The position numbers were made by a program, and so were the translations under genes. A DNA stretch of 15,916 bases, from assembly GCA_029062725.1 (NCBI GenBank), contig JAIDPP010000251.1, positions 1 to 15,916 of the forward strand, given 5' to 3'. This DNA comes from Muribaculaceae bacterium (GTDB taxonomy: Bacteria > Bacteroidota > Bacteroidia > Bacteroidales > Muribaculaceae). Position 1 is the first letter of the stretch. Each line of letters opens with the position of its first letter. The notes under the pieces were generated by a model. It was given only the letters and a program-made list of their open reading frames with translations. It was not told where the DNA came from and made no database searches. This document shows positions 444-15,916 of the stretch, in pieces.

Positions 444-1814
444 TTACTCTCCCGTGAATATCAGGTATTCGCCGGGAGCGAGAGTTTTGGGGAGGGAGGC
501 CGGCTCGCCGGTCATCCAATTGGTCATCCCCTTCACAGAAGGTGCTTTTTTGAAGGGCTTCACGGCGGTCTTTCCTAAATTGGCCACGGTTATCACATTG
601 CCGCGGCGGAAAGCTATCACATCATCGGAAGCGGTGGCCAGACGCTCCATCTTCGCGCCGTTGCCCGCCGCAAGCTCCCTGCGCTCATGTTTGAGCCGGT
701 TGAGGCGCTTGTAGAAAGCCGTGACATCAGCGTTGGAACTCCAGTCGGGAGCCTGATCCTTCTCAAAGAACTCGAAAGCCCGGTTGAGGCCCACCTCCTG
801 GCCCGTGTAGATAAGAGGCATTCCCGGGAGAGTGTAGATCAGAACGGCGAAAGCCTCCTGAAGATTCCCTAAACGGTCGAATTCCGTTCCCTCCCATGAA
901 TTGAGATCATGGTTGGTGATCATGTTCATCAGATAGGAGTCGCCGGGATAGGTCTTCGCCTCCTCCTCGAGACGGACGTAGATATCCGAGGCATGTTTCT
1001 CCGGAAAATCCTTCATCTTCCCTTCGGAATCCTTGAAGGAATACTGCCCCGAAGTAGCGGCTATAGCGCTGAAGAGGTCCTTCATCGGCCAGTTGTAACC
1101 CATATCGAACCCATGTTCGAGAAGTTCCGGATTGGGAGCCTCGGCCAGCATGAATATCCCGGGCTTCACGGCCTCGAGCTGCGGACGGTTCTCATTCCAG
1201 AAATCGGTAGGCACCTCAAAAGCCACATCGCAGCGGAAACCGTCGATATCGGCCTCGCGCAGCCAGAAAGCCATAGCGTCGGTCATGGCCTTGCGCATCT
1301 CCGGGTTGCTGTAGTCGAATTCATAGACGTCTGTCCAGTCATAAGGACCATACATCTCCCCCTTCTCATTGCGCTCATACCAGTCGGGATGGTTCTTCAC
1401 CCAGGCGTTGTCGCGTCCCGAATGGTTAGGCACCCAGTCGATGATCACCTTCATCCCGGCGTCATGCGCCGCCTTTACCACCTTCCGGAAATCGTCGATA
1501 TTTCCGAATTCAGGATTGACACCCTTGTAATCGCGGACCGCGTAATAGCTGCCCAACGTTCCTTTGCGTCCGTCCTCCGAAATGGGATGGATAGGCATGA
1601 ACCAGAGGATATCGACTCCCAGCTCCTTGAGGCGCGGAATCTGGGGGAGAAAAGCCTCGAAAGTACCCTCCGGAGTGGCCTGACGCACATTCACTTCATA
1701 AATCACTGCCTGACGGCTCCAGTCGGGATGGTTCACCGTGGTCTCCGCAGGCTGCTGCGCCATCCCCAGCAGAGACGCGCAGGCTCCTAACATAGATGCA
1801 AGAACTTTTTTCAT
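444..1814 (-). CDS. Secreted GH13 alpha-amylase-family glycoside hydrolase
   Basis: This encodes a 456-residue enzyme predicted to hydrolyse alpha-1,4-glucans (starch, glycogen or maltooligosaccharides). All four GH13 regions are visible: DWVPNH (126-131), GFRCDVA (192-198, nucleophile D196), LAEA (E225 acid/base) and ITNHD (D303). A small beta domain follows from about residue 395. The first 20 residues (MKKVLASMLG, then ending GMAQ) form a signal peptide, so it acts in the periplasm or outside the cell. An upstream in-frame ATG at 1925 would add 37 residues in front of the signal peptide and pass through the promoter region, so 1814 was chosen. It is divergent from amtB and ends before a hairpin at 381-417. 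No SusC/SusD pair is present, so it is a lone amylase rather than a classic starch-utilisation locus. Exact substrate specificity is not readable from sequence. Confidence 0.93.
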   Translation of the reverse strand: MKKVLASMLGACASLLGMAQQPAETTVNHPDWSRQAVIYEVNVRQATPEGTFEAFLPQIPRLKELGVDILWFMPIHPISEDGRKGTLGSYYAVRDYKGVNPEFGNIDDFRKVVKAAHDAGMKVIIDWVPNHSGRDNAWVKNHPDWYERNEKGEMYGPYDWTDVYEFDYSNPEMRKAMTDAMAFWLREADIDGFRCDVAFEVPTDFWNENRPQLEAVKPGIFMLAEAPNPELLEHGFDMGYNWPMKDLFSAIAATSGQYSFKDSEGKMKDFPEKHASDIYVRLEEEAKTYPGDSYLMNMITNHDLNSWEGTEFDRLGNLQEAFAVLIYTLPGMPLIYTGQEVGLNRAFEFFEKDQAPDWSSNADVTAFYKRLNRLKHERRELAAGNGAKMERLATASDDVIAFRRGNVITVANLGKTAVKPFKKAPSVKGMTNWMTGEPASLPKTLAPGEYLIFTGE

Positions 1815-1847
1815 GATAAGCTTTTGGGTTATACAGTTTTTCAGATG

Positions 1848-1855
1848 CAAATATA
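1848..1855 (-). promoter_or_regulatory. Candidate -7 promoter element of the amylase gene
   Basis: The minus strand reads TATATTTG, matching the Bacteroidetes sigma-ABfr -7 consensus TAnnTTTG, about 33 bases before the amylase ATG at 1814. No TTTG box is found at the expected 19-21 base spacing; the nearest is 25 bases upstream. The site is therefore plausible but incomplete. Confidence 0.4.
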
Positions 1856-1928
1856 TAAAAATTATCCCGAAAAAATTCATCAAATCTCCACCTTGAAAAA
1901 ATAATATTCCCTGATTTATTAACATATT

Positions 1929-3445: not shown

Positions 3446-3486
3446 ATGACGGTGTGTCAAATTTACGTAATTTGACACGCCGTCAT
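3446..3486. terminator. Bidirectional terminator palindrome, GTGTCAAATT family copy 1
   Basis: The arms start ATGACGG and end CCGTCAT and enclose GTGTCAAATT/AATTTGACAC, giving about 18 bp of stem with one G-T wobble. It lies 18 bases after the amtB stop and is followed on the plus strand by a run of T. On the minus strand it contains the stop codon of the convergent AAA-ATPase-like gene (TGA at 3483-3485), so it can end both transcripts. The inner arm is the same as in the palindrome at 5262-5304. Confidence 0.75.
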
Positions 3487-5045
3487 AGTTTTTCAATTAC
3501 ATATTGAAGGGCTCGGGACTCCCTGTTCTCCATGTAGTTAACCCCGATCAAAAACACTTGCCTTGGATCAACCGCAAGGTGACCTGCATAATCCCGGGAA
3601 TGAATCTGCTCCATCGCTTCCCGTACACTCCGGTTATATTTGAACTCGAAGAGATAAACGAACCTTGAGGTCTGTACCTCCAGATCGCTTCTCCCCCTAT
3701 AGGAATGGTGTTCTGCTATGGAAAGCGTGCCGCATAGCACCGTCAGCAGATATGTTATAGCCCGGTAAGATGATTCGCAATGGTCCTCCCGTGGCAAGTC
3801 TTTGAACAGCGCTTCCAGACGACGCATAAAGTCATCTATTCTCCCCTCATAAAGATCCTCCTTGAAGTCACTGAATTGGAAGGGACTATCCGGAGCATAT
3901 ACGATTGGCGCATACTGGCCGAGAATATCCTCATAGAATCCGATTTCAACCTCATAATTTGGAAATTGAAGTTGGTAAAGCTGAGTTTCCGGATTATAGG
4001 AACCTATAGTAAGATAACCTGTCTGGAACATCAAAGGAACAGGATTGCGGTCGCTGATACCGATTGTCATGAGTGATTTTTCAGTACATTTCCTTCCATT
4101 AAGATCCGGAGGGAAAGTACCCATATTCTTTATGCGCCTTGCGAGGAAAGTAGGAGTTCCGGTTGCGAACCAGAACGGACTGATCCTTTCATCGTCCAAG
4201 GCGCGGAGCACACTGTACGGGTTATAAAGACGGGATCCTTCGGGAGTAAAGAGATATCCATCATAATATCGTCTCATTTCCCGGAGAGTGGTGTCGAAGT
4301 CCTCCTTACGTTTTCGCGCCAGATTCTCTATCCCGGATTTAAATGAATCTACCATTTCCTCCTCTGTCCACCCGCAGATATCAGAAAAGCGGTCAACGAG
4401 CGAAATATCCTTCAGGTTGTTGATGTCGCTAAAAATGCTTACCCGGTTGAAGCGAGCCACTCCCGTAAGAAAGGCAACACGAATGAAGGCATCCATAGAT
4501 TTCAGGTTGCCGAAGAATCCTTTGAGGGTCGATTGATACCGCTCATACAGCTCTTCATTATCCTCCAGACCTAAAAGAGGTTTGTCATATTCATCAATAA
4601 GAATGACAACCTTCCTGCCGGTCTTTTCAAAGGCCGAGCGGATAAGTTGCCGGAAACGCTGAGCCGGTTCCGAATATTGTCGGTTGATTTCATAGAACTC
4701 CTCATGTTCGCGCAATTGCTGATCAAGAAGAGCCTCAAGACCGTTTTCCTTTTTATAATCCGAGGCATTGAAATCAAAATGAAGCACAGGATTCGGCGTC
4801 CAGTCAACATCCATAGAATCTATGGCAAGACCCTTGAAGAGCTCCCTTCTCCCCTCGAAAAAGGCATGAAGAGTCGATAGCAGCAGACTCTTCCCGAAGC
4901 GACGCGGACGACTCAGGAAATAGAAGGCTTCATTTTCTGCAATGGATTTGATGAAACGTGTCTTATCCACATAGGCGAATCCTCCCTCTATCAGTTTGGG
5001 AAAACTCTGGATTCCGACCGGATATTTAATTACTTCAGGATTCAT
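3483..5045 (-). CDS. AAA-ATPase-like / PD-(D/E)XK nuclease-fold protein
   Basis: This 520-residue protein has two domains. The N-terminal AAA-ATPase-like domain (PF09820 type, about 5-290) begins YPVGIQSFPKLIEGGFAYVDKT. It holds a Walker-A-like SRPRRFGKS (45-53; K52, S53) and a Walker B VVILIDEYDKP (146-156; D151, E152). The C-terminal nuclease-fold domain (PDDEXK_9, formerly DUF1703) shows GRSDLEV (D454), FEFK (E467, K469) and a following Q480, so the catalytic core looks intact. The biological role of this family is not established; a mobile, defence or toxin-like function has been suspected. Start choice: an ATG at 5069 would add eight residues, but family members begin near the ATG at 5045, and a near-consensus -7 box (TATATTCG) lies between the two. 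The gene is isolated, convergent with amtB, and bounded by related palindromes on both sides. Its G+C is lower than that of amtB. Confidence 0.9.
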   Translation of the reverse strand: MNPEVIKYPVGIQSFPKLIEGGFAYVDKTRFIKSIAENEAFYFLSRPRRFGKSLLLSTLHAFFEGRRELFKGLAIDSMDVDWTPNPVLHFDFNASDYKKENGLEALLDQQLREHEEFYEINRQYSEPAQRFRQLIRSAFEKTGRKVVILIDEYDKPLLGLEDNEELYERYQSTLKGFFGNLKSMDAFIRVAFLTGVARFNRVSIFSDINNLKDISLVDRFSDICGWTEEEMVDSFKSGIENLARKRKEDFDTTLREMRRYYDGYLFTPEGSRLYNPYSVLRALDDERISPFWFATGTPTFLARRIKNMGTFPPDLNGRKCTEKSLMTIGISDRNPVPLMFQTGYLTIGSYNPETQLYQLQFPNYEVEIGFYEDILGQYAPIVYAPDSPFQFSDFKEDLYEGRIDDFMRRLEALFKDLPREDHCESSYRAITYLLTVLCGTLSIAEHHSYRGRSDLEVQTSRFVYLFEFKYNRSVREAMEQIHSRDYAGHLAVDPRQVFLIGVNYMENRESRALQYVIEKL

Positions 5046-5190
5046 ATCGCGAATATAACACAATTTCACGGCAATTTAAAACCTTCTCGCCGAAGTTTTT
5101 TCCATCTTCCGCCGAACTTTTCTCTCTCCTATTGGTTATAATAGATGAAAAGTAATTCGTTTCATGATGTTAGGTTAGTTTAAAAGTATT

Positions 5191-5247
5191 ATGGAAAACA
5201 TGCGAATGTGGCGAGTCGTGATGACCCGCCACATTCGCGTTTTATAA
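5191..5247 (+). other. 18-codon open frame through a hairpin, probably not coding
   Basis: An ATG at 5191 opens a frame reading MENMRMWRVVMTRHIRVL and ending with TAA at 5245. Most of it is simply the translation of the hairpin at 5200-5240, whose symmetry explains the repeated Arg pattern. No TAnnTTTG promoter element is visible upstream on the plus strand. It is listed because it lies in the 260-base gap between the AAA-ATPase-like gene and the fimbrial operon, and is more likely incidental than translated. Confidence 0.15.
5200..5240. terminator. Strong hairpin with T-tracts on both sides
   Basis: GCGAATGTGGCG (5202-5213) and CGCCACATTCGC (5227-5238) pair perfectly over 12 bp. After one mismatch GTC/GAC also pair, leaving a five-base loop. 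The plus strand continues GTTTTAT and the minus strand continues TGTTTTCC, so it could terminate in either direction. No gene lies upstream on the plus strand. The useful orientation is probably minus, as a second terminator behind the one at 5262-5304, protecting the AAA-ATPase-like gene from fimbrial read-through. Confidence 0.6.
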
Positions 5248-5261
5248 ACACGTAATAAAGA

Positions 5262-5304
5262 AAGGGCGGCGTGTCAAATTTTGAAAATTTGACACGCCGC
5301 TCTT
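5262..5304 (-). terminator. Terminator of the fimbrial operon, GTGTCAAATT family copy 2
   Basis: GCGGCGTGTCAAATTTT and its exact reverse complement flank a single G, forming a near-perfect stem. AAGG/TCTT extends it by 4 bp (one G-T wobble) to about 20 bp. It lies 25 bases after the stop codon of the last fimbrial gene. The minus strand then runs into TCTTTATTA. The core GGCGTGTCAAATT is shared with the palindrome at 3446-3486. Confidence 0.72.
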
Positions 5305-5329
5305 AGGTTTTATTATTCAAAGATTGATC

Positions 5330-8300
5330 TTACTTCGGACCTGCGGAATATTCTTGAGCTTCGTTTTTAATAACGGGAATTGGGTTGGTTTCGTTACCGT
5401 TTCCATTGTTACCGTTATTGAAGATAATGTTTATATTCTTATCTTTCGGAATACATGAACGGTATCTGCCGTCACTCATTTTTGTCATGATATATCCCGG
5501 CCATCCGTTGTTTTCATCACCGTTATTAGGGTTGTACCAATATACATATACCTCACCCCAATTATTCGGGTTAGTATAGTATATGCTGTACATTCCTTCC
5601 GGGGTTGTCTGCTGAATAGTAAGGGGATTCGGACTGAAAGTTACGCTTGCTGTTTCATCGTTGCTGTTATATGAACAGATCCAGGATCCACCAAGCACAG
5701 TATTCTGAGATGAACCGGTCGGACTAACCCATGTATCGCCAACCACTTTCCAGCCGTTCAGCTCCGACGGTTTCTTATCCCTTGAATAAACCGTAGTATT
5801 GCCTTCTCCTTTGGACATCGAGTGCCAGACTCCATCCTCGGAACGGAAAGTGAATATCACATAAAACTGCTCGGGTCGAGTGTTGGGCGATTCATAAACG
5901 AAATTGAAATAATTATCGGGGTTACCCATGGTAAGGTAGTTGCCGATAGCTTGGCCGGGCCAGTTTGTCACGGCATTACGGTTCCCGTTCGTGTCGAGAG
6001 AATAGAGGAATACATGGGTAGCGCCTGCCACGTTGAAGTGCGTACGGTATTTTGTCGTCGTATTTTGCGTGATATTCACGCAACGAACCGACAAAGCGAA
6101 ACCGTTGCTTTCCTTACGTCCGTTCACCTCAGCATTATCGTATGAAGCGATGGAGCCGGCGATCTTCAGATATTTGAGCCAGTTTCCGATATGGTCTTTT
6201 TCAAATCCCTCGGAAGGTGTTGACGTCCAATAGTAACCGGTCTTGGAGTCGCCGGTCAGGGATCTGGTGGTCGCGTCGTAATAGCGCGATTTTGAGAAAT
6301 AAACTTTCTGTCCTTTCGCGTTGGTAAACTCAGCGTTATAGTCACTCAGATAACGGTTCATCTGGAAGTTCGGAGAGTTGCGTAGAGTGTTCCAGATATC
6401 CTGACGCGGAATCTCATATCCAGGAGGACAGAGATTGCTATACATAATCGGCTCACCGCCGTTATTATATTTGGCCGCCATATAGTATCCTCCGGCAGCA
6501 CTTTCTGTACCGAATACTGAAATGTTACCCTCACCCATGCAATAAGGATTTGCAGCCCTCGCTCCAAGATTGCGGTCCAGCCAGTGATAGGTTCCTGCCG
6601 GACCCTCGATCACTTCATAATAGTAGAAATCATCATCCGTATCAGTGCGGTCTATGCGATAATCCTTTGGATTCAGATCATTAGCTTTTTTGGCACCGCG
6701 GAAAACTGTCGGGCGGTCAAAGAAACCGGTATGATAAAGATCAAGCGAACAATCTGTAGAAGAACCATCCTCGGTAGAAGTTATTGTAAGAGTCAGCTTT
6801 CCGACCTCATATTCCCAGTTTGCCACTGAGGGATCATGCGTGATATTTATTTCAAGTTTCCCCGTCTTATTGTTCCCGCTGTAATTATCTAATGTTATAC
6901 CCTTGATACCGGTTGTCTCGATCTTCCAGTTATAGGGTTTCCCATTGTTGAGGTCATTGAACTCTACAGTATATTCATAGCTCCAACGTGCATCCGGACC
7001 TCCATAGTTAAGAGGGAAATGCAGACCGGCATCACGCACCTTATCGTTATTCTCAGATTTTTTCAAACCATGACATACGTTATGCACGAAATACCAGTAA
7101 TCTTCCGATCCGGTTGTCGAGTATCGGGTGGTTCCTGTGTTGTCTTTTATTGTAAGCTTTGCCGTACAAAGTTCCGCACCATTGAATTCGCGGCTCCATA
7201 TTACGGGAACTTCACGTGTGAGGCCTTTCCATGATACGATGATCTTCCCATTCAATTCACCCGGGGAAGGAGGATTACTGAAATCTACGGGAATTTTATA
7301 CAGAACCCCCTTGAAGGCTTCCTGACCCTGCATCGAACCAAATTCCGACGCTTCGGCAGGTTGAGGGGTTCCTAATGTCAGCCAGCGGCTGGTGGTGGTG
7401 ATGCTGACATCCTCGATATTCATCTCTGAAGCGTCAAGAGAATAGAGCCTTACATAAAGTGATTTCTGAGTCTCCGCAGTGGTCGCGTTTCCGCTGTGAG
7501 CCACCTCATGCGACACCCCTAACTCGCGTGTCCCGTCAGTTATCAGATTGAAGGCCTGCGGACAGTAGTCATAGATATCGGTCTTCAGAAGCGAAGTAGG
7601 ATTCTTGGCGGCAGCGGCGGCCGTAGTGTCTCCCTTGCCTCCGACTTCCAGTATCATTACCTGATACCAATGGTTTGAGTTGAGGTTGAGGGGAGTGACT
7701 GTCTTTGCATCCTTGTCAACTTTCTCGAACTCCACACGATAGAAATATTCCTTTCCGTCGCTATACGGAGCCTTTACGATTATGAAGGGACGGTTGGCAT
7801 CATCACGTCCGTTATTTTCGGTAGGATGAAAATAAGGCTCCGCGGGGGTGGTGACATCATCGGCAGTGACGTTTACCGGTCTTGAAGAGGGAAGAGCGGA
7901 GTCTTCCGCAAAAGTAGCTGCCACAACACTTGAATTCTCCGCTGTGCCGAATACCTGAAAATTATATGCGTTATCTCCGGGTACATACTCCCCCTCCACT
8001 ATTTTAGCATCGGTGACCGTAACTTTCGCCCCGTTGCGCTTAAGCGCTACAGACTCCTTGGTTCCTCCAACGATATCGCTTAGCGATGCGTAACCGCTCA
8101 TCACCATGTTGGATCCGCTCATCACCTCAGATGTCTTCTCCTGAAGTTCCCCCTCGGAGAGACCCGAGGTAAAGGAAACTCCTTGTGGAACGTTGGCGAT
8201 GAAATAAAGTTTCAGACCGCTTTTGGTACGGAGGGCGGAATTAAGCTCGCAGGAAACGGTATGGCGGTTTCCGGAGGATGTTATTTCCGAACCGGAAAAA

Positions 8301-8521
8301 GATTTGATCTGTGCCACACCGGTCTCGTCGAGAACCAGCATAGTGACATTGGCCACGGCATCTTCCGAGGCGCGTGTTCCTACTATCTCCATCCCGGGAA
8401 CGGCAAGATTGACGGTCAGTTCTCCGTCGGATCCAAGACCCGACGGAGAATAAAGCTCGTCAACGCTGCAGGCCGAAAGACCTAAGGCAAGCGTGGTATA
8501 TATGAAAAGTTTGCGTATCAT
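5330..8521 (-). CDS. Fimbrial tip-type lipoprotein with FISUMP-like and tandem CBM26-like modules
   Basis: This 1063-residue lipoprotein (signal with LGLSAC, lipid-bearing C18) is the last gene of the fimbrial operon and probably a tip adhesin. TRA at 49-51 is a likely arginine-protease maturation site. Residues about 35-300 look like fimbrillin beta domains, ending in HWYQVMILEVGGKG (284-297). Residues about 310-600 are further beta-rich repeats, possibly Ig-like. About 640-816 is a FISUMP-type domain: WLDRNLGA (647-654), CPPGYEIP (698-705), YYWTST (763-768), SVRCVN (811-816). Two modules resembling starch-binding CBM26 follow: about 826-905 with NWPG (853-856), and about 976-1045 with TNPNNW, VYVYWYNPNN, GWPG (1006-1009) and IIFNNG (1032-1037). 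It starts 13 bases after the previous gene and is followed by a terminator. G+C falls from about 52-55% at its 5' end to about 37% at its 3' end, suggesting module acquisition. The adhesin role is inferred; the lipobox and WPG motifs are seen directly. Confidence 0.82.
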   Translation of the reverse strand: MIRKLFIYTTLALGLSACSVDELYSPSGLGSDGELTVNLAVPGMEIVGTRASEDAVANVTMLVLDETGVAQIKSFSGSEITSSGNRHTVSCELNSALRTKSGLKLYFIANVPQGVSFTSGLSEGELQEKTSEVMSGSNMVMSGYASLSDIVGGTKESVALKRNGAKVTVTDAKIVEGEYVPGDNAYNFQVFGTAENSSVVAATFAEDSALPSSRPVNVTADDVTTPAEPYFHPTENNGRDDANRPFIIVKAPYSDGKEYFYRVEFEKVDKDAKTVTPLNLNSNHWYQVMILEVGGKGDTTAAAAAKNPTSLLKTDIYDYCPQAFNLITDGTRELGVSHEVAHSGNATTAETQKSLYVRLYSLDASEMNIEDVSITTTSRWLTLGTPQPAEASEFGSMQGQEAFKGVLYKIPVDFSNPPSPGELNGKIIVSWKGLTREVPVIWSREFNGAELCTAKLTIKDNTGTTRYSTTGSEDYWYFVHNVCHGLKKSENNDKVRDAGLHFPLNYGGPDARWSYEYTVEFNDLNNGKPYNWKIETTGIKGITLDNYSGNNKTGKLEINITHDPSVANWEYEVGKLTLTITSTEDGSSTDCSLDLYHTGFFDRPTVFRGAKKANDLNPKDYRIDRTDTDDDFYYYEVIEGPAGTYHWLDRNLGARAANPYCMGEGNISVFGTESAAGGYYMAAKYNNGGEPIMYSNLCPPGYEIPRQDIWNTLRNSPNFQMNRYLSDYNAEFTNAKGQKVYFSKSRYYDATTRSLTGDSKTGYYWTSTPSEGFEKDHIGNWLKYLKIAGSIASYDNAEVNGRKESNGFALSVRCVNITQNTTTKYRTHFNVAGATHVFLYSLDTNGNRNAVTNWPGQAIGNYLTMGNPDNYFNFVYESPNTRPEQFYVIFTFRSEDGVWHSMSKGEGNTTVYSRDKKPSELNGWKVVGDTWVSPTGSSQNTVLGGSWICSYNSNDETASVTFSPNPLTIQQTTPEGMYSIYYTNPNNWGEVYVYWYNPNNGDENNGWPGYIMTKMSDGRYRSCIPKDKNINIIFNNGNNGNGNETNPIPVIKNEAQEYSAGPK
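5387..5596 (-). other. Region encoding CBM26-like module 2
   Basis: It encodes residues 976-1045 of the terminal tip protein. The order of motifs (YYTNPNNW, then VYVYWYNP, GWPG, a DGRY strand, IIFNNG) follows starch-binding CBM26-like modules, where aromatic residues stack on glucan chains. Assignment is by eye. Confidence 0.6.
5807..6046 (-). other. Region encoding CBM26-like module 1
   Basis: It encodes residues 826-905 of the terminal tip protein: THFNVAGATHVFLYS, NWPGQAIG, then a strand with FYVIFTFRSEDGVWHS. The layout parallels module 2 (FN or NPNNW, V-Y-Y strand, NWPG), so the two look like diverged tandem copies. The match is weaker than for module 2. Confidence 0.5.
6074..6604 (-). 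other. Region encoding FISUMP-like domain
   Basis: It encodes residues 640-816 of the terminal tip protein. The spaced signature of W-LDRNLGA, a CPPGYEIP segment, YYWTST and a closing SVRCVN is that of the Fibrobacter succinogenes major paralogous domain (TIGR02145/PF09603) and related lectin-like folds on Bacteroidetes surface proteins. Its ligand is unknown. Confidence 0.68.
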
Positions 8522-8534
8522 TTCTGATTATTGT

Positions 8535-11500
8535 TTATAAGGTTGCTTCATAGCGCTTTGTCGCCGTATTATACTTAAAGAGGCTTACATTCTTGTTATA
8601 TTCCGGATCTTGCGCATCCAGCTTATACTTGACTGTCGTAGCTCCGGTTTTGGTAGGAACAAATGTATAGACGCCGTTGTAGGTTGCCTGATTGTTCCAA
8701 TCCCCGTTATTTTTGTTAGCACTGTAAGCATCCCCGTTATCATCGCTCCAAGCCCACACTTTATGGGAAACTCCCGGGAAAACAAGTGCGTAGGTCTTTC
8801 CAACCTCGAATGTGGTAGTGGTTGACCCTTGTGTCGGCTCATCAGGCGTCGGAGGTATGGGGGGTGTCGGTACACCGGAAGGCTTACCTCCCTCTCCACG
8901 GCCTACTTCCAAAATCGTATAGTGGAAACAACCGTCTTCAAATTTGAAAGTACTTGCGTTAAATGACGGCTGCTCAGTATCATATTTACCTTTTGTCTTT
9001 ATCCTTTGATAATTTATATTGCCTGACAATTGATTTTCCTGTACGTCGAATTCAACGTAGGCGTAATAGTCGTTATATTTATGGAAGCTTGCTCCCCCCT
9101 TAGTATCCTTTGTCACTACATTTCCCGCGCTGAAGTCAGAAGGTGGATATACTTCATCACCCCATGCGTTGTCTTTCCATACATTCAGCCCCTGCCAGTC
9201 TCCGGAATTATAAGGCCAGTAGATGCGGTATTTATATATAGTGACCGGAATAGTAGTGGGCTTATAGGAAACGAATGTCTGGTTCGCTTTTCCATCCACA
9301 TAATAGAACCATCCCTCTTTTGAAGGATAATCGAAGAGAGCCACACCCGGTTCTTCGTGTGCAGGATAACGATTACCGGCCTCTGCATGACTGTTCTCTT
9401 TACAGTCCGTGAACATGATCATAGCCTTACCGGGAGTTGCCACTCCGGAGAGGTCAAATTCCCACCAGCCATCACCTTCACTTTTCATGTGGATGCCGGG
9501 GAAGCCCCTGTCATGGTTTTTCGGGTGAGAGGGGTCATAACACTGAGAGCAAACTCCGTTGAGTGTTTTGCGATAGGTCTCGCAGAAGTCAAGGTCATAA
9601 TAATGGTCGGTCCAGTTGGCCGTTCCGGGATTCCATCCCCCGGCACTGTTGCCGGTGAAGAACCAGAAACCACCGTTAAGCCTTCCGACGTCGTCCGGAT
9701 CATTATGCTCGCCGACGTTCCATCCCATGAAGGCAGCCCCACCGGTAAAGTCATATTCGAGCGCCGCTGTTGTAGCGGAATAGCCTACAATCTTACCGGG
9801 AACTCCGCCGTGTGTATAGGTCACGTCAGCCGGCAACTGGAGACATTGATATACGTATATATGAGGATGAGACCAGGTAGGCGCATATAGATGCACCTTA
9901 TATGTGTCGTTGCTGGAGATTATATAGATAGACACCGTACACTTTACCTCATTTCCTTCATAATCGTGCCCCTTGAGAACAAGCGACATGGTATGATTCT
10001 TTTTCCAGAGTTCACGTGTTCCGTTCAGATCATTAAAACGAACGTTAAGCTTCACCTTTCCGTCTTTGGGTTCTAACGTCGCGCCGTTCTCGAGCGGATG
10101 ATTAGAGCTGTCAAGTATTTGGAGGGAGCCGTCGCTGTTCTCCTCGGGCCAGTCCACTTGCTCCAAGGTGAACGATGCAAGGTTGGATTTAAGATTTACT
10201 GCAATATCTCCACTATAGTCGCCGGATTCCTTTCTGCGGGCCACATCGATAGTTACAAGCTCATTATCGGCGGTGATAAATTCATTAAAAATGATATCGC
10301 CTACATCTACCTTCTTTACCAGAGGTCCGGCAAAAAGTTTGAAATATTTCCAATCATTGCCCTCCTTGATGGTATTGAATTCAGCATGGTCGATCGCGGG
10401 ATTAAGAGTAATGCTGATATGACCCTCCCCTGTCTTCTCATCGACAGGAGATACTGTGATATCATAGATTTTGTCTAATCCGAATGATTCGCAGTCGGCG
10501 GTGACAGGAGCATTTGATTTATAGGTGATATCGACTGTCTCGCCGGCAGTGATCGTAAAGCCGGTCTTATCTATGTCGAGGATCGTCGGACCATTGAGCG
10601 CACCGATCATAGCAATTGGCGACCACTGCTGAACATCCAGAATGAATTTGCCGTCAGAAGTGCCTATATAGTCGTAGAAATGAGAGCGTTCTACAATCTT
10701 ACCCTTCACTGCGTCGGTATGGTTGATCGGCAACGGAAGAGAAACATTTCCTATCTGTATGTGCGCGGTAGTGGCGTTCTGCGACTGATCAAGCTGCTCG
10801 GGAACATAGAACACTGTCTGCCATGCCCAGGGAGAGGTTGCTGAAGCAGTGATATCGCCGAGATTCTCTACATCCAGATTCTTCAGATCGTCAGCCGGAA
10901 GGGTTGCGGGAAATCTCTTGTATCCTCCGGCAGGTTCGAGTCGTGAACCCTGTCCCGGGGTATATTGACCGTCGCGGAGCATAGCCGATGCGTCAGAATG
11001 ACCGTCAACATAAAAGGCGTTTACCATGTCAGCCGGGTGAAGGTCGTTAAGGACAGTAACCCTTACCTTCGCCACAGCGAATTTCAGATTTGCCTTGATG
11101 CGGGTGCTGACACCTGAATTAACGGTAATGGTTCCGTTTCCAGCCGGGGTATAGTTGCCGTTATTATCCCTTGTCAGAAGGTCTGAATGGGTGCACGACA
11201 TCGGAAGTCCGGTAGCCGCGATGTCTGCCGGAACTGTAGCAGTCATCTTGAGAAGGTCCTCCTCCTTTATTGTCTCCGGATCCGAGAACGCGGTATTGGC
11301 CACGACGTAGCATCTGTATTCCCCGTTCTCAAGATCGAGTCGGTATCCGGTCTTGAAATCAGGGTCACCGGTATTGGAAATCTTCGTACATTCCGTGGTA
11401 AGCTCGTAAGTCACCGGGATGTCTTTACCATCCGCGTAGGCGAACAGCCTGATATTCTTTATCGCTCCCTCTGTGGCATTGAAGTCTTTCGTAGAGCCGG

Positions 11501-11678
11501 CGCGTGTGCCGCTCTCTTCCGGCACAACACCTTCCGGCACCTGAGGGATATATATCACGACTCCGTTTTCAGAATCGGAGACGTTATTTTCGCGAACCAC
11601 AATGTCATCGCTGCATGATGTCAGCAACCCGGCCGTTGCGGCCATTATCGCGAAGATATTTCTGTTAAGAAGTTTCAT
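8535..11678 (-). CDS. Large fimbrial tip-type lipoprotein with starch-binding-like modules
   Basis: This 1047-residue lipoprotein (signal LLTSCS, C22) is the second-last gene of the fimbrial operon. TRA at 58-60 fits arginine-specific maturation. Residues about 65-360 are fimbrillin-like, with IKNIRLFAYADG (73-84) and AVAKVRVTVL (201-210). About 365-590 are beta-sandwich repeats. About 591-800 resemble Bacteroidetes starch-binding modules: YKVHLYAPTW (593-602), FPGIHM (726-731), GWWEFDLSGV (737-746), a PGKAMIMF strand (749-756), RYPAHEEPGVALFDYPSKEGWFYY (770-793, given in part). A further beta domain (about 810-925), a Pro-rich linker (935-948) and a final domain with VWAWSDDNG (974-982) follow. 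An insert with C699, C710, C713, H718 and H722 is unusual. It begins 27 bases after the previous gene and ends 13 bases before the next, so it is cotranscribed. A tip adhesin is inferred from size, position and modules. Confidence 0.8.
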   Translation of the reverse strand: MKLLNRNIFAIMAATAGLLTSCSDDIVVRENNVSDSENGVVIYIPQVPEGVVPEESGTRAGSTKDFNATEGAIKNIRLFAYADGKDIPVTYELTTECTKISNTGDPDFKTGYRLDLENGEYRCYVVANTAFSDPETIKEEDLLKMTATVPADIAATGLPMSCTHSDLLTRDNNGNYTPAGNGTITVNSGVSTRIKANLKFAVAKVRVTVLNDLHPADMVNAFYVDGHSDASAMLRDGQYTPGQGSRLEPAGGYKRFPATLPADDLKNLDVENLGDITASATSPWAWQTVFYVPEQLDQSQNATTAHIQIGNVSLPLPINHTDAVKGKIVERSHFYDYIGTSDGKFILDVQQWSPIAMIGALNGPTILDIDKTGFTITAGETVDITYKSNAPVTADCESFGLDKIYDITVSPVDEKTGEGHISITLNPAIDHAEFNTIKEGNDWKYFKLFAGPLVKKVDVGDIIFNEFITADNELVTIDVARRKESGDYSGDIAVNLKSNLASFTLEQVDWPEENSDGSLQILDSSNHPLENGATLEPKDGKVKLNVRFNDLNGTRELWKKNHTMSLVLKGHDYEGNEVKCTVSIYIISSNDTYKVHLYAPTWSHPHIYVYQCLQLPADVTYTHGGVPGKIVGYSATTAALEYDFTGGAAFMGWNVGEHNDPDDVGRLNGGFWFFTGNSAGGWNPGTANWTDHYYDLDFCETYRKTLNGVCSQCYDPSHPKNHDRGFPGIHMKSEGDGWWEFDLSGVATPGKAMIMFTDCKENSHAEAGNRYPAHEEPGVALFDYPSKEGWFYYVDGKANQTFVSYKPTTIPVTIYKYRIYWPYNSGDWQGLNVWKDNAWGDEVYPPSDFSAGNVVTKDTKGGASFHKYNDYYAYVEFDVQENQLSGNINYQRIKTKGKYDTEQPSFNASTFKFEDGCFHYTILEVGRGEGGKPSGVPTPPIPPTPDEPTQGSTTTTFEVGKTYALVFPGVSHKVWAWSDDNGDAYSANKNNGDWNNQATYNGVYTFVPTKTGATTVKYKLDAQDPEYNKNVSLFKYNTATKRYEATL
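8835..8876 (-). other. Region encoding a proline-rich linker
   Basis: It encodes residues 935-948 (GVPTPPIPPTPDEP) of the second-last fimbrial protein. The linker separates the beta domains from a C-terminal module of about 95 residues, which indicates an independently folding terminal unit. Confidence 0.75.
9279..9908 (-). other. Region encoding starch-binding-like module with Cys/His insert
   Basis: It encodes residues 591-800 of the second-last fimbrial protein. A FPGIHM motif (compare WPG in CBM26), a GWWEFDLSG strand, a PGKAMIMF strand and a closing KEGWFYY segment follow the pattern of Bacteroidetes starch-binding-like domains. The stretch at 9513-9584 encodes the cysteine/histidine cluster C699, C710, C713, H718, H722. 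Assignment is by eye, without a profile search. Confidence 0.5.
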
Positions 11679-11705: not shown

Positions 11706-12875
11706 TCAGAAATGGAAAACATCTCCTACCGTGTGATCCCAGGGGGTGGCTTTGAGCACTACCTCCACACCTCCCGTCGGGGGACGGTGAACCACGAAAG
11801 TATAGACTGTGTTTCGCATCACGCCCTGCCATGCGCCGTTATCGACGGTGGCGAGATCGGCCTCGGCATCCACCACGAAATCGCGGTGAGGAGCAAATGT
11901 CAGCGTTGTCGTGCTGCGGGAGGTGTTCTGAAGACCGGAATCCTCGTTGGCATAGATCAGCGCGATGTCGCGCACGGGATCTGTCGGAGCCGCGAGGTTG
12001 CCGTCCGCGTCATAGAAGGAGCTCTCGAAAGAATAGAACTCGTAGGCGCGGCAGGCCGCGCCGTTGTAGCTGACCGTGGCGTTGGATGCCGAAAGGGTCT
12101 GCTTGAGCGTCAGGGTCGAGACAGCCGGAACATGCGGACGCAACACCCGGTCGCCATTCATCCAACCGGTAGGCTCGGGGCAGATATAGCCGTATTGCGG
12201 CGTGTCGAGCTCCACCTTGTCGATAATGCCGTCGGCATCGACGATCACTATCTTGGCCAGCGCTCGGGTCATGTCCACGTCGGGGAGACGCATCGCGTTG
12301 CGGGCGCTGTAGATCTCCTCGTTATACTGCTTCATGGTAGCCGCCGAGACAGCAGTGCGCCCGGCCATCGGCATATTGTTGACACCCTCTTCCGAATAGG
12401 GATTCCAGACATAGCCGTCGCTTGCCCGGCCCGGCCATACGAGAGTGTTCATGTCGGCGTTATCCATATTCGCCAGAGAGAAGGTTTTGGAGCGCATCGC
12501 CGCAGGAACGTTAAACGCGGCGGTGGTGAACCCATCCTTATAATCCTCCTTTTTCAGATGGGCGGCGACCGCCGGGCCCCAGTTGGGGAGGAAGTAATAG
12601 GCGCGGAGATCGGTGTTGGCCTTCTCGCTGTCAGGACCGTTGAAGATCATATCCTTGAGAGTGCCGTCGGCGTTATAGGTGGCGAAAGCGAGCTGGTTCT
12701 TCTGAAGCGACTCCACTTCCGGGGAGACGGCGCGGGTAGGAGCGGTTCCGCCGATCGACATGATCACGCTGAACTCACCCTCGAGCGGTGCCTCGGGAGC
12801 CTCCTTGTCGGAGGAGCAGGCGCCCGCGAGGACTAATAGCGGCAGGGCCGCAGAAAATTTTATATACTTATTCAT
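11706..12875 (-). CDS. Accessory fimbrillin lipoprotein (Mfa3/FimC-like position)
   Basis: This 389-residue lipoprotein (signal ending LAGAC, C20) is the third structural gene of the fimbrial operon. Two fimbrillin beta domains are suggested by FSVIMSIGG (35-43), the PMAGRTAVSA and DMTRALAKIVIVDADG segments in the middle, and a C-terminal RNTVYTFVVHRPP followed by VEVVLKATPWDH. TRA (47-49) lies 28 residues after the lipidated cysteine, matching the arginine-protease site of polymerising fimbrillins. In Porphyromonas the third gene of the mfa and fim clusters encodes an accessory or tip-adaptor subunit, which is the best guess here by position and fold. It starts 15 bases after the anchor gene stop, with AAAGG before the ATG, and is followed by the first tip gene after 27 bases. 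Exact orthology to Mfa3 or FimC/FimE cannot be set from sequence alone. Confidence 0.72.
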   Translation of the reverse strand: MNKYIKFSAALPLLVLAGACSSDKEAPEAPLEGEFSVIMSIGGTAPTRAVSPEVESLQKNQLAFATYNADGTLKDMIFNGPDSEKANTDLRAYYFLPNWGPAVAAHLKKEDYKDGFTTAAFNVPAAMRSKTFSLANMDNADMNTLVWPGRASDGYVWNPYSEEGVNNMPMAGRTAVSAATMKQYNEEIYSARNAMRLPDVDMTRALAKIVIVDADGIIDKVELDTPQYGYICPEPTGWMNGDRVLRPHVPAVSTLTLKQTLSASNATVSYNGAACRAYEFYSFESSFYDADGNLAAPTDPVRDIALIYANEDSGLQNTSRSTTTLTFAPHRDFVVDAEADLATVDNGAWQGVMRNTVYTFVVHRPPTGGVEVVLKATPWDHTVGDVFHF

Positions 12876-14015: not shown

Positions 14016-15668
14016 TTACTTCCACTCCATCTCGTTTGTCAGCGTTCTCCAGGGGAGGACATTGACGCTCATGTGGAGGTAGTAGTCAGAATCCTTGGGG
14101 TCGGGACCATCGAGAGGAACAATGGGAGTGTTGGGTCCGGGAAGACCGATACCCATACCGCCGATACCTGTGATCTTGATGTCATAGTAATGGTTACGGA
14201 CAACCATCTCATAGTCATCTTTGGAAACGGAGGTCGGAACGTGATTAATGGCTTTTGAATAGTAGCCGTAGCCGCCGTGATATTTCACGCAGCGGGTCGG
14301 GAGGCTCTTCTCCTTGACAACCATCCAGCCTGTCCAGTTAGACCATTTATCGTCTCTTGCGCCGGGAATATTCACGTCTGCAGCGGCGAGCACATCCTCC
14401 GGGATGAGGGTGTCGTGGTGAGTGTCGTCAGTCCAGTCGCCACCCATAGCGAGGATAGCGTCTTTCTCGCTGCTATAAACCTGGAAATGATCCTGGAAAG
14501 CCACAAGCCAGAAAGATCCGTCGGCGGCAGCAAGGTTATTGCCGGCATTGTCTTTCACCTCATATTTACCGAGAACAACAACTGAAGTCTTGCGGGTATC
14601 TTTGGGATTACCGTTATCGAAAGCATAGAAGGTAAGAGGAGTAGTCTTGTTGTAAGCCTTTGCGGCTGTGGTTGTGATATCCTTAAGCTTGCCGTCAGCC
14701 TCAACAACATCGCTGGTAGCACCGAAGGGCATTTTGTTGGCATCCTGAATCTCTGTCAACGTGGGCCATTCGATGTTAGTAGAGCGGTCGCGACGCAGCA
14801 TACCGGACCAGCGGTTCTCCACACTGTTGAAGCCTTCCCAGCCAAGAATGTCGGTGTTGAATGAACCGTAATCAGGAAGCTTCTTGATTGTGTAGGTATT
14901 TTTACGATATCCGGTGAGGAAGGTGTATTCAGGTTTGAAAGTAACCTTGGCGTTCACTTCCTTATCTGTCTGCTTGGCAAGAGGATCAAGTTTGCCATCT
15001 GCGTCGAGGGTATAGTCAGCGCCATACTGATTGCTGATCTTGACTTTAGCAACAAGGTGCTCCACATTCACAATCACCGGTTTACCGTATGTCGCGCCGG
15101 ACTCGGCATTGATGGCGTCCTCCTCTTTCTTGAACAGCATTTCTCCGGTGATAGGTGTCTTGTTTGTACGCTCACCGTTTGCATCGTAGTAGCGTGCGCT
15201 ACTCATAAAGAAGAGGTTGTTGGTGCCGCGAGAATAATGATCAATATCAAGGTCCTGAGCCGTGATGTCTCCTTCATACTCTCTTTCACCATTGATAACA
15301 ACAGTAACGGCGTTAGGCATCTTCGAGAGCTTAACTACGGCACACTTGTTACCGGTCTGGCCATCATGTTCAACCCATTGAGCACGATCCTTAGGATCAG
15401 GAGTCTTACGGGCGTAGCGGGTCACGGGCGCTGAGCCATCGGCATAATCGAAGATGAAGGCTGCCTCCTCGATCTCATTCTCGAAATCGTAGGGAGTTAC
15501 CTCCGACACGGCACGTGTAGCAGAAGAGGGGAACTCGATGCGGAGATAGCCGATCGTTCCCTCGTCATCTACGGGAGTGGGATCGTAGCCCAGAGGCTCG
15601 TCCTGACTGGAGCAACCGCCGAGCATCAGCATGGCTGAGGCAAGGGCAAATGCATAAGTTTTTTTCAT
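14016..15668 (-). CDS. mfa1: Mfa1-family fimbria major (shaft) subunit
   Basis: This 550-residue lipoprotein precursor (lipobox MLGGC, C19) is the likely shaft subunit. The N-terminus has the strand YLRIEFPSSATRA (41-53), with R52 as the expected maturation site. In Porphyromonas Mfa1, arginine-specific cleavage at this region frees a groove that accepts the C-terminal strand of the next subunit. Other family signs are the EEAAFIFDYADG strand (67-78), FFMSSARYYDANG, VEHLVAKVKIS, and the C-terminal YYLHMSVNVLPW followed by NEMEWK. It is the first fimbrial structural gene, 41 bases after the TPR gene, with an A-rich leader and no strong Shine-Dalgarno. Two hairpins follow the stop, which could favour its expression over the downstream anchor and tip genes. 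Export is by the lipoprotein route to the outer membrane. Its length is similar to known Mfa1 proteins. Confidence 0.88.
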   Translation of the reverse strand: MKKTYAFALASAMLMLGGCSSQDEPLGYDPTPVDDEGTIGYLRIEFPSSATRAVSEVTPYDFENEIEEAAFIFDYADGSAPVTRYARKTPDPKDRAQWVEHDGQTGNKCAVVKLSKMPNAVTVVINGEREYEGDITAQDLDIDHYSRGTNNLFFMSSARYYDANGERTNKTPITGEMLFKKEEDAINAESGATYGKPVIVNVEHLVAKVKISNQYGADYTLDADGKLDPLAKQTDKEVNAKVTFKPEYTFLTGYRKNTYTIKKLPDYGSFNTDILGWEGFNSVENRWSGMLRRDRSTNIEWPTLTEIQDANKMPFGATSDVVEADGKLKDITTTAAKAYNKTTPLTFYAFDNGNPKDTRKTSVVVLGKYEVKDNAGNNLAAADGSFWLVAFQDHFQVYSSEKDAILAMGGDWTDDTHHDTLIPEDVLAAADVNIPGARDDKWSNWTGWMVVKEKSLPTRCVKYHGGYGYYSKAINHVPTSVSKDDYEMVVRNHYYDIKITGIGGMGIGLPGPNTPIVPLDGPDPKDSDYYLHMSVNVLPWRTLTNEMEWK

Positions 15669-15709
15669 GTTGGATAGTTTAAATTATTGTTGTTTAAAAA
15701 TTTATTTTT

Positions 15710-15916
15710 TCAGTCTGTGAATACGGTCACCTGCGGCGCTGTCATTCTCGCGAGGGTCTTCTCGGCTCCGGCGGTATCGATTCCGGCGGCCTTGGCTTTG
15801 GCGAGCATCTCGGCGGCCTTGGTGTAGTCGCCCTGCTTTGCGGCAAGGATGGCACGCGCATATACGGCCTGGGCGTATCTCCCGCCTTGGCGAGATAGTT
15901 GGCGGCCTGGGTGAGA
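15710..15916 (-). pseudogene. C-terminal part of a TPR protein, apparently frameshifted near 15878
   Basis: The frame ending with TGA at 15710-15712 reads YAQAVYARAILAAKQGDYTK and then AAEMLAKAKAAG, a clear tetratricopeptide-like helical repeat ending LARMTAPQVTVFTD. Upstream of about 15878 the TPR pattern continues only in another frame (LTQAANYLAKAG), and adding one base would join them as KAGDYAQA. A one-base deletion, real or from assembly at a contig edge, is therefore likely. In Bacteroidales, fimbrial operons are often preceded by DUF3868- or OmpA-type outer-membrane proteins with such TPR tails, so this may be one of those; that is inference. It lies 41 bases upstream of mfa1 on the same strand, so it is probably cotranscribed. 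The rest of the gene is outside the window. Confidence 0.55.

Follow-up and report, generated by a model that had tools for sequence, protein, structure and literature searches.

A putative pilus-tip lipoprotein carrying a CBM26 module in a fimbrial operon of a Muribaculaceae bacterium

Described fimbriae and starch-binding systems

Type V fimbriae of the Mfa1/FimA class from Porphyromonas gingivalis are built from lipoprotein precursors with a fimbrillin fold and an Arg site, and their Mfa2 anchor and downstream accessory tip genes lie in one operon. These features are shared by a five-gene operon in a stretch of 15,916 nucleotides from a Muribaculaceae bacterium (contig C170, JAIDPP010000251.1, of assembly GCA_029062725.1, a draft genome of 1.83 Mb and 79.6% completeness; hereafter the window), the last two genes of which encode the paired tip-type proteins T2 and T1. 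The P. gingivalis tip proteins comprise FimC–E besides Mfa3–5. T1 and T2 differ from the P. gingivalis fimbriae in carrying extra C-terminal modules of the CBM26 type. According to PMC5954841, Arg cleavage has a role in fimbrial maturation and a von Willebrand A domain takes the place of such modules in Mfa5, and PMC12632263 states that tip pilins often carry an extra ligand-binding domain, in some cases lectin-like, with ligands that are little known.

The last module of T1, module B, resembles in sequence, in fold and in both aligned aromatic residues the CBM26 modules of Ruminococcus bromii Sas6, Amy10 and Amy16 and of Eubacterium rectale Amy13K, as well as the CBM26-like domain of Sas20. 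The R. bromii and E. rectale modules sit on Gram-positive amylases or amylosome proteins, whereas that of the window sits on a Bacteroidales pilus-type protein. The Sus locus, with SusC, SusD, a surface binder, GH13 and GH97, is matched by loci in relatives that have pilus genes inside or adjoining them; the binder there is a CBM26 protein, and the window's own genome is without such linkage. To our knowledge, the Bacteroides thetaiotaomicron Sus locus contains no pilus genes. In PMC4936053, GH13 and CBM26 are reported as enriched in Muribaculaceae and, separately, fimbrial genes as present in 80% of S24-7 genomes. No paper joining CBM26 to a pilus was found in the accessible text of the open-access literature, subscription papers and preprints lying outside the search; in two papers that came closest, the mention of starch binding was a cited reference in one and a SusD-like protein in the other, and a survey of gut carbohydrate-binding modules (PMC13003330) contains no fimbri- or pili- word.

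The CBM26 module of T1 and its fimbrial operon

The original prediction described T1 as the last gene of an Mfa-type fimbrial operon, with two starch-binding modules behind a FISUMP-like domain, and proposed a pilus adhering to glucan. Its observation is confirmed and its interpretation is partly supported. The five genes are co-directional on the minus strand, with open reading frames spaced by 13–60 bp, and T1 runs in order from a signal/lipobox through a fimbrillin N-domain, two immunoglobulin-like domains and a FISUMP-like domain to modules A and B.

14016..15668, minus strand: Mfa1-type major fimbrillin (shaft); PF15495 Fimbrillin_C, 51.7 bits
12891..13955, minus strand: Mfa2-type anchor; PF08842, 154.5 bits; Cys at the lipobox position
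11706..12875, minus strand: p3, in the accessory fimbrillin position; Cys at the lipobox position and TRA site
8535..11678, minus strand: T2, paired tip protein, 1047 residues; Mfa3-like N-domain at residues 38–352
5330..8521, minus strand: T1, fimbrial tip-type lipoprotein, 1063 residues; last gene of the operon
8369..8377, minus strand: T1 T-R-A motif, residues 49–51, candidate Arg maturation site
7559..8434, minus strand: T1 fimbrillin-fold domain, residues 30–321, from the predicted fold
6725..7537, minus strand: two immunoglobulin-like domains of T1, residues 329–444 and 451–599
6074..6598, minus strand: FISUMP-like domain of T1, residues 642–816; TIGR02145, E 9.6e-7
5747..6049, minus strand: T1 module A, about residues 825–925, diverged CBM26-like
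5336..5596, minus strand: T1 module B, residues 976–1062, canonical CBM26

Module B is assigned to CBM26 by its sequence and predicted fold. It matched PF16738 with 58.8 bits in the whole protein and 54.1 bits as a stretch, above the gathering cut-off of 28.1, and the predicted fold is the CBM26 beta-sandwich; the refuting outcome named with the original prediction did not arise, both platform aromatics of module B being aligned as well. Module B matched Sas6 in a phmmer search (E 7.5e-8), and a profile of 17 tip-module rows matched, in the PDB, Amy16 (6.1e-27), Amy10 (5.4e-16), Amy4 (1.6e-13), Amy13K (1.5e-12) and Sas6 (7.9e-11), and also the carbohydrate-binding module of ALPHA-AMYLASE G-6 (2c3g, E 0.0038). 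Plain phmmer searches with T1 and T2 as queries yielded no useful PDB match. SusE and SusF families were absent from the Pfam and NCBIfam output for the C-terminal modules of T1, and the fold matches listed for residues 976–1062 were CBM26 chains.

Maltotriose in the CBM26-like domain Sas20d1 rests on Y60 and W72, with a bond from Q127; the W72A variant binds neither ligand, whereas Y60A still binds maltoheptaose (PMC9112005). The alignment and the residue spacing put Y996 and W1007 of module B in the columns of the two platform aromatics, and these residues probably form the corresponding platform. Among separate CBM26 domains, 34 of 39 in T1 homologues and five of eight in T2 homologues retain the two aromatics (39/47 overall); these 47 come from 93 rows in 240 listed homologues, the other 46 having been set aside because of overlap with module A or with the T2 core. 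W1007 also occurs in 17/17 rows of alignment A5, which is not evidence, since those rows were hand-picked as CBM26-like with WPG. Within the source genome, the modules of T1 (54.1 bits) and of a second T2-type protein on contig C428 (48.5 bits) fall in the score range of those of three amylases of the genome (27.8 to 56.2 bits). Among the listed homologues a separate CBM26 occurs in 38/120 for T1 and 8/120 for T2 (38 and 7 by the separate-domain criterion).

Placement of T1 on the pilus tip is supported by its fimbrillin fold, lipobox Cys, TRA site and operon. The N-terminal part is predicted to have the fimbrillin fold. In Foldseek with the whole T1 model, Mfa1 ranked 24th among mostly unrelated chains. 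With lipoboxes assigned by eye, the Cys and the TRA motif lie at C19/TRA51 in Mfa1, C20/TRA47 in p3, C22/TRA58 in T2 and C18/TRA49 in T1, whereas the Mfa2 anchor has C42 at the lipobox position and lacks a TRA motif within residues 1–120; the sequence pattern of a lipobox Cys followed by a putative Arg site therefore marks the shaft and tip subunits and is absent from the anchor. R50 of T1 is kept in 74/76 rows of alignment A1 (T1 homologues). Shaft and anchor genes in the same operon mark T1, by gene content, as a probable type V pilus subunit, and Mfa2 lies upstream of the tip genes in 29/41 loci of relatives.

The operon would accordingly make a type V (Mfa/Fim-class) pilus, in which T1 and T2, as lipoprotein precursors cut at the conserved Arg, would be incorporated distally by way of their fimbrillin N-domains. 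The C-terminal part of T1, comprising the FISUMP-like domain and modules A and B, would project outward as an adhesive head, and canonical module B would bind alpha-1,4-glucan in starch, glycogen or a similar polymer, such that the pilus would tether the cell to it. A type V pilus tip that carries CBM26 and binds alpha-glucan is the most likely reading of the sequence, and we give the account as a whole a probability of about 0.62.

Divergence of module A, T2 and the wider family

Module A appears from its sequence to be a diverged CBM26. Alone it scored 19.2 bits against PF16738 (E 0.0014), under the gathering cut-off of 28.1; 18 of 25 module A segments matched PF16738 at E ≤ 1 (best 4e-7), and a profile–profile comparison with six CBM26 sequences gave E 1e-5 and a probability of 82%. 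Y840 and W854-P-G are present in 76/76 rows of alignment A1, and at least one xWPG motif in 120/120 T1 homologues (the best 120 of 264). By alignment, module A lacks one of the two platform aromatics. Of the two starch-binding modules originally predicted, module B is a significant CBM26 match and module A a diverged one. Module A is carried by 39/41 locus T1 open reading frames, and the two without it are incomplete, L039 being truncated where its contig ends and L043 being split. Because module A is widespread and a separate CBM26 is confined to a minority, the half-preserved site belongs to the wider family and the canonical module is an addition in a subset.

The FISUMP-like assignment holds at a reduced level, the TIGR02145 match of 29.6 bits being under the curated cut-off of 41.65; PF09603 is precomputed in several T1 homologues. 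A diversity-generating retroelement acting on this domain is unsupported for the source genome, as RVT_1 was absent from this genome (about 80% complete) in a profile search.

The T2 core (9243..9908, minus strand; residues 591–812) is CBM26-like with a long insertion, and its PF16738 stretch at 725–761 scored 21.5 bits, under the cut-off. Two further C-terminal modules without a family name follow, at residues 812–935 (YRIYW-type) and 951–1047 (KTYAL-type), and are possibly further binding modules; they occur in 21 and six of 120 listed T2 homologues (21 and eight after one iteration) and in two and one of 120 listed T1 homologues. The second T2-type protein of the source genome (C428:1-3166, L003) matched the T2 profile with 601.9 bits and has a full CBM26; C428 is a short contig, on which no partner T1 was seen. 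Matched stretches of T2 in G145 (C29:10295-13189) and of T1 in G037 (C6:79240-82146) contain two and three in-frame stops, respectively, which may reflect decay, errors or search joins.

T1 homologues were sought with residues 640–1063, which include module A, whereas the locus search patterns lie outside it; the local CBM26, module A and T1/T2 profiles were built partly from sequences on which they were run. The T1 search, with at most five candidates scored per genome, gave matches in 63 of 149 genomes, mostly partial ones to the CBM26 or fimbrillin part, and T1 was counted in the eight genomes that scored at least 168 bits, a cut-off chosen once the list had been seen. G087 (77 bits, positions 475–789, close to its T2) probably makes a ninth, and G057 (75 bits, positions 5–309, N-terminal part only) was not counted. 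Order-level searches, restricted to the first two candidates per genome, found one and two of 295 genomes and missed the T1 of G007, and were not used as counts. Some T1 homologues are called 'starch-binding protein' by their sources, and some close homologues are labelled 'Muribaculaceae bacterium'.

Within the operon, the Mfa1-type shaft scored 115.2 bits against NF038041 (cut-off 130), and p3 had no family match in the Pfam and NCBIfam profile searches. Two strong terminator-like hairpins lie 3' of T1 (5202..5300, minus strand); on both strands of 4900–5500, five hairpin sites were found against a shuffled mean of 0.6 (standard deviation 0.8). No inverted repeat for a phase-variable promoter was found at 15400–15916, where the contig ends. 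Downstream of the operon, window positions 3483–5069 (minus strand) encode an AAA-ATPase_like/PDDEXK_9 protein, a homologue of which (40% identity) follows T1 in L027, the sole one found among 41 loci.

Linkage to starch loci and alternative readings

Three relatives in which a Sus-like locus contains or adjoins T2 and T1 strengthen the link to starch. A single strand of G440 (L035/L055; contig CAMWXH010000009.1) carries DUF6377 (truncated where the stretch ends), SusC, SusD, a CBM26-repeat lipoprotein, GH13, Mfa2, p3, T2, a T1 with CBM26, and GH97; the lipoprotein, in the SusE/F position, has three repeats by the local profile and two stretches by Pfam. In G441, a different metagenome-assembled genome, contig C3 ends with DUF6377, SusC, SusD, CBM26x3, GH13 and part of Mfa2, as identified by tblastn with the G440 genes, and L031 starts in Mfa2 and continues with p3, T2, T1, GH97, CBM26x3 and GH13/CBM26x2; we infer that the two form one locus across the contig break. 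In the T1 of G441, the local profile detects no separate CBM26. The order in G442 (L038/L056) is T2, T1, DUF6377, SusC, SusD, CBM26x3, GH13 and GH97, so that T2–T1 adjoin the DUF6377–SusC end, whereas GH13 and GH97 flank the pilus genes in G440 and G441. GH97 was counted once in G440, twice in G441 (on two duplicate contigs) and once in G442, which has one further sub-threshold match. The DUF6377 protein lies upstream of SusC, in a regulator position, in all three Sus-like loci (L055, L056, L057).

Between G440 and G441 the surrounding genes are 78–93% identical (SusC 92%, SusD 92%, CBM26x3 protein 78%, GH13 88%, Mfa2 81%, GH97 93%), whereas p3, T2 and T1 are 37%, 40% and 44% identical, which indicates that the tip cassette has been exchanged or is diverging much faster. 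The T1 proteins of the three relatives are 28–34% identical to that of the window, and at this similarity the transfer of the starch-locus inference to the window T1 is reasonable, not certain. A dedicated starch pilus in some gut Bacteroidales would be a type V pilus whose tip consists of two alpha-glucan-binding proteins, with genes that in some lineages lie within a Sus locus, and its fibre would capture starch and pass it to the SusCD–amylase machinery; this is an attractive possibility to which we give somewhat less than even odds.

A GH13 gene within the window (444–1925, minus strand) was set aside as weak evidence for starch: GH13 matches occur at 10 places in the 1.83 Mb source genome, or about 0.09 expected per 16 kb, and AmtB, on the other strand, separates it from the operon. 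This gene is the genome's best match to the GH13 of the G440 Sus locus (196.9 versus 47.6 bits, 36% identity). Weak GH13-like or CBM26-like matches also lie beside T1 at L021:13669-20495 and L029:12889-15465.

Several observations weigh against an alpha-glucan-binding pilus tip. The FimD and FimA models are sub-threshold for the operon proteins; against NF052322 (FimD tip adhesin, cut-off 170) T1 scored 71 bits and T2 42.2 bits, and only the N-terminal 300 residues of the 1063 of T1 align with this model of 664 positions. Module B has E1044 where Gln is commonest in relatives, and both aromatics are kept in only 15/23 CBM26 domains from proteins outside profile building. The module A profile found no CBM26 in the PDB, and 57/76 rows have G, L, E or V at position 842, where the second platform aromatic would stand. 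Only 14/41 locus T1 proteins have a separate C-terminal CBM26, which means that the family as a whole cannot depend on module B. In L038, the surroundings of T2–T1 showed no Mfa2 homologue. A starch locus occurs at only four of 41 loci (three genomes, of which G440 and G441, being related, count as one lineage), in a survey spanning up to 10 kb on each side of T1 and less where contigs end, and GH97 was found on the contig of T1 in 0/9 family genomes, including that of the window, all draft assemblies. The proposed glucan-adhering pilus is hence only partly sustained: its tip features, its CBM26 and the three Sus-linked relatives speak for it, while the module A platform, E1044 and the 37 unlinked loci do not.

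The strongest alternative, which we consider unlikely, is that T1 is a pilus tip the CBM26-type modules of which recognize another glycan or a protein, such as mucin or host glycan or a neighbour's capsule or exopolysaccharide, the fold being a generic adhesive scaffold. The broad retention of module A without a full platform, the variety of C-terminal modules (YRIYW, KTYAL, CBM26) and the scarcity of known ligands for these fimbriae noted above would fit this, whereas the paired aromatics of module B and of most T1-homologue CBM26 domains, its amylase-like score and the Sus-like loci that embed or flank the tip genes in three genomes argue for alpha-glucan. It is improbable that T1 is instead a monomeric surface starch-binding lipoprotein like SusE/SusF, with a borrowed fimbrillin N-domain and no role as a pilus subunit: the lipobox Cys, the Sus-like neighbours, the 'starch-binding protein' labels and the lack of a visible Mfa2 in L038 are compatible with it, but the fimbrillin fold, the conserved TRA site that the anchor lacks and the operon with Mfa1 and Mfa2 are not readily so, and in G440 a separate CBM26x3 lipoprotein already takes the SusE/F position. 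That the CBM26 modules are vestigial, shuffled in from amylases with sugar binding no longer selected, is very improbable, since E1044, the incomplete platforms of module A and of 8/47 separate domains and the patchy presence of module B are outweighed by the aromatics kept in the other domains and by the attachment of CBM26 to T2 as well, on C428 and in several relatives.

In conclusion, a tip protein with CBM26, together with the Sus-embedded pilus genes of relatives, provides a concrete and testable ligand for gut type V pili. If the alpha-glucan-binding pilus is real, it would extend the Sus model of starch capture by an adhesive organelle and would help to explain how Muribaculaceae hold food particles.

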